Assembly (NCBI GenBank): GCA_011048515.1
Contig: DSDW01000135.1
Coordinates: 1-48,384, forward strand
Source: Campylobacterota bacterium
Lineage (GTDB): Bacteria > Campylobacterota > Campylobacteria > Campylobacterales > Sulfurovaceae
Direction of reading: 5' to 3'
DNA length: 48,384 nucleotides
A program made the position numbers and the translations under genes. Each line of letters starts with the position of its first letter. Within the stretch, counting starts at the first letter, position 1. Under the pieces are notes generated by a model that was not told where the DNA came from, searched no databases, and saw only the letters and a list, made by a program, of their open reading frames with translations. Positions 2,746 through 6,759 of this stretch are shown piece by piece.

Positions 2746-3021
2746 CTACCCTAAAAGGGCTCTCATCATAAAGATATCCAGAAACTGCAGGCCAAGGATG
2801 ATCACCAGCGGTGAAAGGTCCACCCCAGAGAATACGACAAACGGCAGCTTGCGACGGATAAATGAAAATGCAGGTTCCGTCAGACGGCGCAGTATCTGCA
2901 CGATAGGGTTGCGCGGGTCTGGCTGCACGAAGCTGATCAGTGCAGCGATGATGACGATCCAGATATAGATCGTAAAAACAGTATGAAGTGTCTGTACAAT
3001 GGCATAGATGAGTGCGCTCAT
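2746..3021 (-). CDS. YggT family membrane protein
   Basis: A 91-residue integral membrane protein with two hydrophobic segments (about 8-30 and 60-85) separated by a loop containing D-P-R-N-P-I-V-Q-I-L-R-R-L-T-E-P, the YggT signature. Family members are implicated in osmotic tolerance or cell-envelope and division functions, but no reaction is known. Its ATG overlaps the gltX stop by 4 nt, suggesting translational coupling in gltX-yggT-slt. Confidence 0.88.
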   Translation of the reverse strand: MSALIYAIVQTLHTVFTIYIWIVIIAALISFVQPDPRNPIVQILRRLTEPAFSFIRRKLPFVVFSGVDLSPLVIILGLQFLDIFMMRALLG

Positions 3022-4268
3022 GAGGCTACCTCCAGGATATAAGATTTGATATACGGGTAGATGTCGGAAAGTTCGGGGCCGTTACCTGTACCCGTAAGCA
3101 GGTAACGGAGCGGTTTGGAGAAGTTCTCTCCAGAGAGTCCTGTCTTTTCCATGATGTAGGACTCAAATGCCTCATAGGTGTTGATCATCGGGGCATCAAA
3201 AATCACATCAGAGATCTGTCTCATCTGCTCTCCCCATTCAGCGCTGAAGTCTTTTGGTTTGAAGATCGGTCTGATCTTTGCTTCAAGTTCATTGATCGTA
3301 CCGGCTTCTTTTTCAAGATACACTTTTGCCAGTCTCCCGATATCTTCATCCGCAAAACCAAAGAGGCCCGAGAGACGTTTGTCGTCCATCATTTTAAGGT
3401 GTTCGCAGTTGATGAAACGGAGTCTGTCGATATCAAATCTCACCGGAGAGTTGGAGAGCTTTGTCAGATCGAACCACTCTAAAGCTTCTGGCATCGTGAA
3501 GATCTCTTTGGGTGTTTGATTGCCCAGCGCGATCAGGTAGTTGGCGATCGCATCGGGGATGAAGCCCTGCTCAAAGAGCCATTTTACTGTATGTGCTTCA
3601 TCTGTATTGAGTATGGAAGGCAGGTGTGCGTACGCTGTCTCCTGCTCATAGCCGAGCAGTCTCTTGATATGTTGCTCTCTCGGCGCGTTAGAGAGGTGCT
3701 CCTCCCCACGGATGATCAGGCTTATCCCGGAGATCATATCACCACAGGCAGAGGCGAAGCTGCGGGTCGGTGTACCGTCAGCCCGGAGGATCACAAAAGC
3801 GTCGACCTCGCTGGGCGCTGTTTCGATATCACTTTTGATCAGGTCATGGATGAGGATCGGCGCATCCGGCTTTTTGATACGGATGACAAAAGGGGTTTTC
3901 TCTTCTTTGAGTTTGGCTAGCTCGGCAGCGCCCATAGCGCTACAGTGTCCACTATACATTTCTGAAGATTCTGTATCTTTACAGGTACAGACAAACGCTT
4001 TCTTCTCTTCAAGAAGCCTGATCGCCAGGGTCTGGTGCAGATGCAGGTTTTCGCTTTGGTGCATGACACTGTCATGGGGAAGCGCAAACTTCTCGAGTAT
4101 CTCCATGATCTCCGTATCTTTTCCGGTGATGTTCCGTTCTTTGTCTGTATCTTCGATACGGACGACAAAGTTCACATCTCTCTGTTTGGCTACGATATAG
4201 TTGAAGATCGCCACACGCAGGTTTCCTATATGCATATCACCGGTAGGCGACGGGGCAAATCTAAGCAT
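3018..4268 (-). CDS. gltX: GluRS2-type glutamyl-tRNA synthetase with missing KMSKS loop
   Basis: A class I synthetase of 416 residues. The HIGH-type motif is H13-I-G-N16 and the catalytic-core segment I-I-R-G-E-E-H (185-191) is present. Between L-P-S-I-L-N221 and D223-E-A-H-T-V-K-W, homologues carry a segment ending G-K-K-M-S-K-R. Here only T222 remains, so the KMSKS loop appears removed by an in-frame loss of about 8-9 codons. The usual P-T-Y-N-F-A...D-D stretch reads P-T-R169-S170-F-A-S-A-C-G176-D, replacing the Tyr and Asn that contact the glutamyl moiety and one Asp. Position before yggT-slt matches H. pylori gltX2 (HP0643), which charges tRNA-Gln with Glu. A GlnRS gene is divergent next door, so this copy may be redundant, decaying or repurposed. 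The frame is intact and conserved elsewhere. Confidence 0.85.
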   Translation of the reverse strand: MLRFAPSPTGDMHIGNLRVAIFNYIVAKQRDVNFVVRIEDTDKERNITGKDTEIMEILEKFALPHDSVMHQSENLHLHQTLAIRLLEEKKAFVCTCKDTESSEMYSGHCSAMGAAELAKLKEEKTPFVIRIKKPDAPILIHDLIKSDIETAPSEVDAFVILRADGTPTRSFASACGDMISGISLIIRGEEHLSNAPREQHIKRLLGYEQETAYAHLPSILNTDEAHTVKWLFEQGFIPDAIANYLIALGNQTPKEIFTMPEALEWFDLTKLSNSPVRFDIDRLRFINCEHLKMMDDKRLSGLFGFADEDIGRLAKVYLEKEAGTINELEAKIRPIFKPKDFSAEWGEQMRQISDVIFDAPMINTYEAFESYIMEKTGLSGENFSKPLRYLLTGTGNGPELSDIYPYIKSYILEVAS

Positions 4269-4497: not shown

Positions 4498-6759
4498 ATG
4501 AGTGAGCACAAAGATTTTTTACGTACAATAGTGGAAGAGGACCTGAAGTCAGGCAAATATAAAGAGATTCATACAAGATTTCCTCCGGAGCCCAATGGGT
4601 TCCCGCATATTGGACACGCTAAATCTATCGCTATCAATTTCGGTATTGCACGTGATTATCATGGCCGCTGCAACCTTAGGATGGATGATACCAATCCGAC
4701 GACAGAGGATACGAGATACGTCGAGGCGCTCAAAGATGCTGTGCAGTGGCTTGGGTTTGAATGGGATAACAGTGTGCGCTATACTTCCGACTACTTCCCC
4801 AAACTCTACGATTATGCTATCGAACTGATCAAAATGGGCAAAGCATACGTTGACAGCCTCACTGAAGAGGAGATCCGTGAATACCGCGGAACAGTGACAG
4901 AGCCGGGGAGACGCAGCAAATACGCCGAACGCAGTGTGGAAGAGAACCTGGACCTTTTCGAGAGAATGAAAAAGGGTGAGTTCAAAGACAGCGAACACGT
5001 CCTCAGAGCCAAGATCGATATGTCTGCGGCCAATATGAAAATGAGAGATCCTCTGCTCTATCGTATCAGACATGCCCACCACTATAGAGCGGGAGATGCG
5101 TGGCATGTCTACCCGATGTATGACTTTGCCCACTGCTTGTCTGACTATATTGAGGGCATTACCCACTCTATCTGTACGCTGGAGTTTGAAAATAACCGTG
5201 ATATCTATGACTGGGTACTGGACGAACTCAATCTCACACCGCCAAGACCCTATCAGCATGAGTTTGCAAGGCTTTCTATCAACTATACGGTAATGAGTAA
5301 AAGATTGCTTCTGGAACTGGTCAACAAAGGCAGAGTGAGTGGCTGGGATGATCCTCGCCTTCCGACCATCGCGGGATACAGAAGAAGAGGGTATACACCG
5401 GAGTCTATTCTCAACTTCTGTGACAGTATAGGTATCGCAAAAGCAAACTCAACGGTGGATGTCTCACAGCTGGAGTTCTGTATCAGGGATGATCTCAATA
5501 CCAAAGTGCCGCGTGTGATGTGTGTGCTTGACCCGCTCAAAGTGACCATCGAAAATTATGATGGAAACGAAGAGCTTGACGGTCCGTACTACCCCGATGA
5601 TGTGCCTAAAGAGGGTTCAAGAAAGATCCCTTTCTCAAGGGAAATCTATATAGAGCGTGATGACTTTACGGAGAACCCGCCAAAAGGCTACTACCGTCTT
5701 ACACCGGAGCAGCCGGTGAGACTGAGACATGCCTATATCATCACCTGCAAGGAGGTGATCAGAGATGCCGATGGCAAGATCACGGAGATCAAAGCAGAGT
5801 ACCATCCGGACTCCAAAAGCGGCTCAGATACCAGCGGTATTAAGGTGAAAAGTGCGATCCAGTGGGTAGATGCAGAGAGTGCCAAGCGCGTTGAAGTGAG
5901 ACTCTATGACAGACTCTTCAGAGACGAAGCCCCAGAAGGGTTGGAAGATATCAACCCGGACTCTTTGAAAGTGATCAAAAATGCGCTCATCGAACCTGCG
6001 GTCATCACTGACAAACCTGATGAGAGATTCCAGTTTGAGAGACAGGGGTATTTCTATGCCGACCCTGTTGACTACACCGATGAGGCACCCGTGTTCAATA
6101 AAATCGTCGGACTTAAAGACTCCTGGAGCAAAAAGACAAAAGCACCGGAAAAAGCACCCAGGGGTGAACGCAAACCTCAAGTCAAAAAAGTGCAGGTAGA
6201 GGGTGAAGTAGCACCTATGAGCGAAACCGAGCAGGCACGCTTTGACAGGTACACGGTTGAACTCAAGCTCAACAGTGAAGTAGCCAATACCCTGGCACGT
6301 GATGAGAAACTCTCCGGTTTTTATGAAGAGGCTCTGGCGGTATTGGAGAGTCCCGTAACTTTGGCGAACATCGTAGCCAATGAGGTTGCCAGAGAACTCA
6401 AGGAGAAGCAGCCTGATGCACTGAAATTCAGCGCAGAGAAGATCGCAGAATTGGTCAAAATGATCGATGATGAGACGATTTCAACGAAAATTGCCAAACA
6501 GGTATTTGAAGAGATGGCTCAAACAGGCGAAAATCCGGTACAGATCGTTGAGGCTAAGGGGCTTGTACAGATCAGTGACCCGGCACTCATTTTGCCTATC
6601 ATTGAGGAAGTCATTGCAAGCAACCCGGACAACGTCGCTAAGTTCAAAGCAGGCAACACCAAACTTCTGGGCTTCTTTGTCGGGCAGGTACTCAAAACCA
6701 CAGGGGGCAAAGCAAACCCACAGGTGGTGAATGAACTCGTGGCTGAGAAGCTAAAGTAA
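4498..6759 (+). CDS. glnS: Glutaminyl-tRNA synthetase fused to a C-terminal YqeY/GatB-type domain
   Basis: A 753-residue protein that charges tRNA-Gln directly with glutamine. HIGH is at residues 37-40 (P-H-I-G-H) after E-P-N-G-F. The KMSKS equivalent V-M-S-K-R is at 265-269. GlnRS-specific D-D-T-N-P and W-D-D-P-R-L-P-T-I are present, followed by the beta-barrel anticodon-binding part. After a Lys/Pro-rich linker near 545-570, residues about 575-753 form a YqeY/GatB C-terminal-like helical domain, the architecture known from Deinococcus and Bacteroidetes GlnRS. Many Campylobacterota lack GlnRS and use GluRS2 plus GatCAB, so a horizontal origin is plausible. The start is ATG 4498 with AAAAGG upstream; TAAAAT at 4462-4467 may be a -10 box. 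Confidence 0.93.
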   Translation: MSEHKDFLRTIVEEDLKSGKYKEIHTRFPPEPNGFPHIGHAKSIAINFGIARDYHGRCNLRMDDTNPTTEDTRYVEALKDAVQWLGFEWDNSVRYTSDYFPKLYDYAIELIKMGKAYVDSLTEEEIREYRGTVTEPGRRSKYAERSVEENLDLFERMKKGEFKDSEHVLRAKIDMSAANMKMRDPLLYRIRHAHHYRAGDAWHVYPMYDFAHCLSDYIEGITHSICTLEFENNRDIYDWVLDELNLTPPRPYQHEFARLSINYTVMSKRLLLELVNKGRVSGWDDPRLPTIAGYRRRGYTPESILNFCDSIGIAKANSTVDVSQLEFCIRDDLNTKVPRVMCVLDPLKVTIENYDGNEELDGPYYPDDVPKEGSRKIPFSREIYIERDDFTENPPKGYYRLTPEQPVRLRHAYIITCKEVIRDADGKITEIKAEYHPDSKSGSDTSGIKVKSAIQWVDAESAKRVEVRLYDRLFRDEAPEGLEDINPDSLKVIKNALIEPAVITDKPDERFQFERQGYFYADPVDYTDEAPVFNKIVGLKDSWSKKTKAPEKAPRGERKPQVKKVQVEGEVAPMSETEQARFDRYTVELKLNSEVANTLARDEKLSGFYEEALAVLESPVTLANIVANEVARELKEKQPDALKFSAEKIAELVKMIDDETISTKIAKQVFEEMAQTGENPVQIVEAKGLVQISDPALILPIIEEVIASNPDNVAKFKAGNTKLLGFFVGQVLKTTGGKANPQVVNELVAEKLK

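Follow-up and report, generated by a model that had tools for sequence, protein, structure and literature searches.

What becomes of an aminoacyl-tRNA synthetase when another enzyme takes over its task? The question is raised by a gene on the minus strand of the window, the 48,384-nucleotide stretch of DNA analyzed here. The gene (gltX2) is of the GluRS2 type, and the GluRS2 of Helicobacter pylori misacylates tRNA(Gln) (PMC9976931). A paper of 2014 reported that six of ten epsilonproteobacteria have GluRS2 as well as GlnRS and proposed that this GlnRS is non-functional; its text does not mention KMSKS (PMC3927822). The two enzymes also occur together in Mesorhizobium (PMC3927822). The original prediction for the present locus placed the lesion in GluRS2: it was said to have lost its catalytic loop, its old task of making Glu-tRNA(Gln) was thought to be gone with GlnRS adjoining, and the protein was supposed to be either drifting or taking a new role. 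Several questions follow. Is GluRS2 really disarmed? Does the disarming go with GlnRS? Does the protein still bind tRNA? Why is it retained?

The gltX2 gene and its neighborhood

The pseudo-GluRS2 gene (3018–4268, minus strand) is a single frame of 416 codons, stop excluded, and its 416-residue product, predicted to be catalytically dead, scores 303 bits against the bacterial GluRS family TIGR00464, above the curated cut-off of 289.95. In class I GluRS, the lysines of the KMSKS loop are needed for ATP. Reading of the frame and alignment with relatives bear out the predicted passage from ILNT to DEAHTVKW without this loop: AHLPSILNT is followed directly by DEAHTVKWLFEQ, where GlnRS-less relatives read AHLPIILNxxGKKMSKRDxASSVKWLFEQ. 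The deletion covers nine alignment columns and lies at the junction (3600–3605, minus strand) of T222 (3603–3605) and D223 (3600–3602). The Tyr-Asn of the glutamate site (PTYN when intact; 3759–3764) is Arg-Ser, through Tyr to Arg at 3762–3764 and Asn to Ser at 3759–3761, and the first Asp of a conserved DDM is Gly (3741–3743), both as foreseen; the intact stretch PTYNFACACDDM reads PTRSFASACGDM here. Tyr and Asn, and likewise this Asp, are found in 63 of 63 GlnRS-less sequences. A putative zinc-binding region, Cys-x-Cys...Cys (C94, C96 and C109; 3942–3989, minus strand), is kept, and its three cysteines occur in about 90% of dead copies.

The gene is followed on the same strand by yggT (2746–3021), whose ATG shares bases with the gltX2 stop codon (ATGA), and by slt (1188–2729), a lytic transglycosylase gene named from its third place in the conserved gltX2-yggT-slt order and from the earlier annotation. 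This order, which was anticipated and is common to dead and intact copies, together with vertical orthology makes the protein a Campylobacterota GluRS2 orthologue; the trait of these orthologues, charging of tRNA(Gln) only, is predicted to be lost in it. The expected GlnRS gene adjoins on the other side as a divergent neighbor (4498–6759, plus strand), with intact HIGH and VMSKR motifs and a C-terminal GatB/YqeY domain. The position of glnS varies among relatives: it is often divergent from gltX2 in the window's genus and in family f16, and only in family f20 does it share an operon with gltX2, lying 2 nt ahead of it on the same strand (glnS-gltX2-yggT-slt).

The source genome is a 90% complete draft of 2.08 Mb in 171 contigs, and its named close relatives are Sulfurovum. 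A second, intact gltX was looked for together with gatCAB: the one other GluRS-like gene is an intact GluRS1 (G000:C7:14457-15518) with HIGG and KLSKR, and GatB is present in the same genome. No AsnRS scored above the family cut-off in the 60 genomes searched, which would explain the retention of GatCAB; it is probably kept for Asn-tRNA. Duplication with subfunctionalization is ruled out as the origin of the gene by the single GluRS2 per genome and the separate GluRS1.

Loss of the catalytic site accompanies GlnRS

The survey took in 78 genomes of the genus and, at a completeness of 90% or more, 259 of the order; 187 GluRS2 sequences were aligned and scored at 12 positions (R3, S7, H13, G15, E39, Y181, N182, R199, E201, K238, S240 and K241 in the numbering of an intact sequence, L012). 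Among fairly complete genomes lacking GlnRS, 62 of 63 sequences retain all 12; the remaining one (G042) retains 10, with the conservative change of Glu to Asp at two sites and an intact KMSKR. The picture is quite different in the 124 GluRS2 sequences from GlnRS-bearing genomes, of which 13 score 11 or 12 and the median is about five; one of the 13 comes from G293, which is not truly GlnRS-bearing (see Additional observations). KMSKR is deleted outright in 61 of them, and many dead copies also lack the His and Gly of HIGH and the Tyr, Asn and Arg of the glutamate site.

The association was then placed on a GluRS2 tree, from which the motif columns had been removed and genomes of doubtful completeness excluded. 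Its rows comprise 103 dead copies with GlnRS, 63 intact copies without it, 12 intact copies with it and one copy counted as dead without it, the 10/12 sequence mentioned above. The site is thus lost in 103 of 115 GlnRS-bearing rows, in several families, and the loss accompanies adjoining and unlinked GlnRS genes alike. The dead state changes about 26 times on the tree, and of 12 supported independent pairs about 10 are concordant (dead with GlnRS) and none discordant (p about 0.002). Even within one genus of family f4, a genome without GlnRS (G058) has an intact GluRS2 and a genome with GlnRS (G039) a dead one. About 11 exceptions combine GlnRS with an intact site (G032, G019, G029, G094, G018, G027, G087 and G268, and at 11/12 G077, G072 and G318). 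One exception of the opposite kind, G078, is a 92% complete genome with a dead GluRS2 in which GlnRS was not found; the pair test excludes it as well as less complete genomes. Since site loss tracks GlnRS across several families, the idea that the old Glu-tRNA(Gln) task is gone where GlnRS adjoins is strongly supported, and the sequences show that catalytic residues have been lost repeatedly in association with GlnRS.

Charge reversal in the anticodon-binding domain

Of the residues conserved in intact GluRS2, dead copies retain a fraction of 0.81 of the acidic and 0.76 of the hydrophobic ones, whereas only 0.52 of the Lys and Arg residues are kept. Each of 19 path-disjoint pairs of a dead and an intact copy shows the dead one to be more acidic, with a mean difference of 11.3 charges. 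Neither slt nor yggT at the same loci shows a matching acidic shift, which rules out a genome-wide acidification. By parsimony, K401E has arisen about 22 times, K389E about 17 times and K399E about 14 times (plus seven changes to Asp), and K336, K359 and K428 of the same C-terminal domain are kept. Replacements at K389, K399 and K401 are acidic in 64 of 95 cases vs. 312 of 996 elsewhere, with a p-value of 9e-12 that is only indicative because the counts are parsimony counts. On the minus strand of the window, E369 (3162–3164) aligns with K389, invariant in intact GluRS2, and E381 (3126–3128) with the conserved K401, both being charge reversals; S379 (3132–3134) aligns with the conserved K399. 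Judging from their domain and charge, these three lysines would contact tRNA.

A basic residue stands at all three lysine sites in 62 of 64 GlnRS-less sequences, five of 12 intact sequences from GlnRS-bearing genomes and three of 94 sequences scoring eight or less. We interpret this as a series of steps, with tRNA contacts lost first and catalysis next. The convergent loss of basic residues is evident from the sequences themselves. Beyond the charge changes, no newly conserved residues were found in the dead copies, so nothing points positively to a particular new binding site.

Selection on the disarmed copies

Omega was estimated with a purpose-written pairwise maximum-likelihood codon model. 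For GluRS2 of the window clade, to which the loop deletion is common and in which it is thus old, it is 0.20–0.23, with omega = 1 rejected (2dlnL 52–86); the neighbors yggT and glnS give 0–0.09. In a neutral simulation of the window gltX2 (0.26 substitutions per site, without indels), the frame stayed open in five of 2000 runs, and neither a stop codon nor a frameshift occurs in any retained GluRS2 frame. The median over sister pairs is 0.148 for dead copies (16 pairs) and 0.041 for intact ones (nine pairs), and pooling of 13 dead pairs gives 0.152 (0.140–0.165). The catalytic motifs have turned from the most into the least constrained part of the protein (0.004 in intact vs. 0.275 in dead pairs), and residues 1–100 outside the motifs are the tightest region in dead pairs (0.083).

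AlphaFold2 models the window protein with a pLDDT of 91 and a pTM of 0.87, and the best Foldseek matches of the model in the PDB are all GluRS (TMq up to 0.87), in keeping with a GluRS fold including the anticodon-binding domain; as the input alignment includes intact relatives, the model speaks for the compatibility of the sequence with the fold, not for folding in the cell. The dN/dS comparison proposed at the outset has returned purifying selection in the window clade. Dead copies are not ordinary pseudogenes, the rest of the protein being under purifying selection. Drift alone, one half of the initial alternative, does not stand; a new role, the other half, is favored, not proven.

A possible path from enzyme to pseudoenzyme

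An outline that could accommodate these results is as follows. The ancestral GluRS2 would have been a tRNA(Gln)-specific enzyme, the first of the indirect route, in which Glu-tRNA(Gln) is passed to GatCAB. A horizontally acquired GlnRS would take over the synthesis of Gln-tRNA(Gln), with GatCAB staying for Asn-tRNA(Asn). If GluRS2 went on binding and glutamylating tRNA(Gln), this would then be useless or harmful, and for this reason lysines of its anticodon-binding domain would be replaced by acidic residues, starting before the catalytic site collapses. Erosion of the HIGH, glutamate-site and KMSKS positions would follow, and the loop would be deleted. The product would most likely still fold and carry the zinc site, but would bind tRNA weakly or not at all and would not form an adenylate; it may be retained for a secondary, probably protein-protein, role as a scaffold or regulatory partner, possibly one already present in active GluRS2.

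We infer that the window protein is inactive and binds tRNA weakly, that GlnRS has taken over and that a non-catalytic role remains. As a whole, the account of a GluRS2 turned into a pseudo-synthetase after GlnRS and kept for a non-catalytic role seems to us somewhat likelier to be right than wrong, and a role involving neither catalysis nor tRNA is favored over slow decay. Slightly less than an even chance may be given to the broader claim that gain of GlnRS repeatedly yields a selected, non-catalytic, tRNA-free GluRS2 by the same ordered path, from lysine-to-acid changes through motif erosion to loop deletion, with a conserved second function inherited from the active enzyme.

The alternative that survives best, though we consider it rather unlikely, is that the protein has been functionless since GlnRS arrived and persists as a benign remnant, as the first gene of an operon that overlaps yggT, with selection acting only against misfolding and sequestration of tRNA(Gln). 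It would fit the start of yggT within 0–9 nt of gltX2, overlapping its stop, in nearly all copies, as well as the roughly fourfold relaxation of constraint and the lack of new conserved residues. Reversal of the presumed tRNA-binding lysines is perhaps needed even by a useless protein, and an omega of 0.15–0.2 could come in part from selection against misfolding. Moreover, gltX2 is gone altogether in about 13 of 90 fairly complete GlnRS-bearing genomes, so any role must be dispensable. However, charged positions in dead pairs are nearly as constrained as hydrophobic ones (0.149 vs. 0.125, and 0.098 at conserved charged non-catalytic sites), which is unexpected if the core alone matters, the sites being classed by residue type and not by burial. 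A further argument against it is G238 (L267, G238:C8:434000-439000), where glnS lies directly before yggT-slt and gltX2 is cleanly missing; the gltX2 frame is thus not required for that operon. It further counts against this alternative that a useless gene of 1.25 kb would have been kept in most lineages for so long that synonymous distances are saturating. Sequence alone does not wholly tell a new role from a harmless remnant.

A pseudo-synthetase that has given up catalysis and kept the binding of tRNA(Gln) or tRNA(Glu), as a chaperone, a hand-off factor or an mRNA- or tRNA-binding regulator in the manner of SLIMP, is improbable. Retained tRNA binding was favored at first for the conserved C-terminal domain, and the anticodon-binding domain is indeed mostly retained and constrained (omega 0.154 in dead pairs); it was then disfavored by the charge loss described above, namely the preferential loss of conserved basic residues, the acidic shift in every pair and the reversal of the three lysines. 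Furthermore, a loop of the acceptor domain (103–114) is often deleted in dead copies, and in three genomes (G215, G307 and G114; L278, L279 and L280) the pseudo-GluRS2 is shortened to 278–313 residues and has lost most of the anticodon-binding domain, those of G215 and G307 lying directly downstream of glnS. The shortened copies also count against the favored account.

It is very unlikely that the protein still works, without the canonical KMSKS loop, as a synthetase or as a ligase for some other acceptor: the window copy retains HIGN (4221–4232, minus strand) in place of HIGH, R3, S7, E39 and the Arg and Glu of IRGE (here IIRGEE), but the HIGH motif and glutamate-site residues are gone in many other dead copies, constraint is lowest in the catalytic motifs, and the loop relied upon for ATP is missing, with no charging activity known for the short-loop relatives that exist. 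A sequencing or assembly artifact, conceivable in a draft of so many contigs, can be set aside, as the same codons are missing in frame from three independent genomes (G036, G093 and G065, with GluRS2 90, 89 and 85% identical to that of the window), which excludes chance or error, and comparable losses occur in several families.

Relation to known systems

To which known proteins can the pseudo-GluRS2 be compared? It resembles active GluRS2 in orthology by sequence, HIGN, length and the gltX2-yggT-slt order found in GlnRS-less relatives, but it lacks the KMSKS loop, the glutamate-site Tyr and Asn and the anticodon-domain lysines, and an intact GlnRS is present. With an aminoacyl-tRNA synthetase fold, missing catalytic residues and purifying selection, it falls among the non-catalytic synthetase-like proteins, of which SLIMP (SerRS-like insect mitochondrial protein) and HisZ (HisRS-like regulatory subunit of HisG) have been reviewed as non-charging paralogues (PMC9437257). 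Like SLIMP, it would be retained without aminoacylation (PMC9437257); unlike SLIMP, which binds tRNA(Ser) and has known partners, it has lost probable tRNA-binding basic residues, and it would have arisen by replacement by another enzyme, not by duplication. HisZ, a paralogue without adenylation, acts through a protein partner (PMC9437257), but it mediates histidine feedback, and a comparable sensing of glutamate by the pseudo-GluRS2 is unlikely because the glutamate-site residues are mostly lost. GluQ-RS (YadB) is likewise a paralogue in the GluRS family with a non-standard role; however, it has no anticodon domain and activates Glu, whereas the window protein is full-length, lacks KMSKS and scores 153.9 bits against a cut-off of 276.7.

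The gene pair and the organism group are those of the 2014 paper, but of the two it is GluRS2 that is broken here, with GlnRS intact. It thus seems that GluRS2 was disarmed by GlnRS, whereas the paper had predicted a non-functional GlnRS (PMC3927822), and the published guess about the GlnRS of these bacteria is contradicted. Among the papers searched, we found nothing on GlnRS in Campylobacterota after 2014 and no report of a GlnRS-linked disarming of GluRS2. The data suggest that in this sulfur-oxidizing host and many relatives GluRS2, disarmed after uptake of GlnRS, now does something else. They offer many natural replicates of the direct route to Gln-tRNA meeting the indirect one, and a testable, ordered series of steps by which an enzyme becomes a pseudoenzyme, convergent charge reversal among them. 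Should the retained protein have a role, an unrecognized second function may also exist in active GluRS2, as in Helicobacter and Campylobacter. Annotation pipelines label the dead GluRS2 proteins glutamate--tRNA ligase.

Additional observations

The GlnRS tree was too poorly resolved for counting transfers, and one of its rows (G102) was in the wrong frame. In G293, a GlnRS-like frame (L263, G293:C171:7700-9900) is 45% identical to the window GlnRS and has 15 in-frame TAA or TAG codons along its main segment, of which six, the largest share, fall on Glu positions. The contig looks like ciliate contamination of a bacterial assembly, from a species that reads TAA and TAG as Glu (peritrich-type code), and G293 was treated as GlnRS-less in the tree-pair and lysine counts. 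In G097, whose GluRS2 is intact (12/12), glnS carries a frameshift around codons 415–424 (L264, G097:C77:18700-20700), which could be real or an assembly error. In the source genome, tRNA(Gln) is not among the 38 tRNA hits of the draft, where tRNA-Glu occurs several times; its gene probably lies in the missing part. Finally, positions 85–582 of the window (minus strand) hold a frame starting MKKRVAVAFTGPSNSGKTTLIEKV that by eye resembles MobB, the molybdopterin-guanine dinucleotide biosynthesis adapter.
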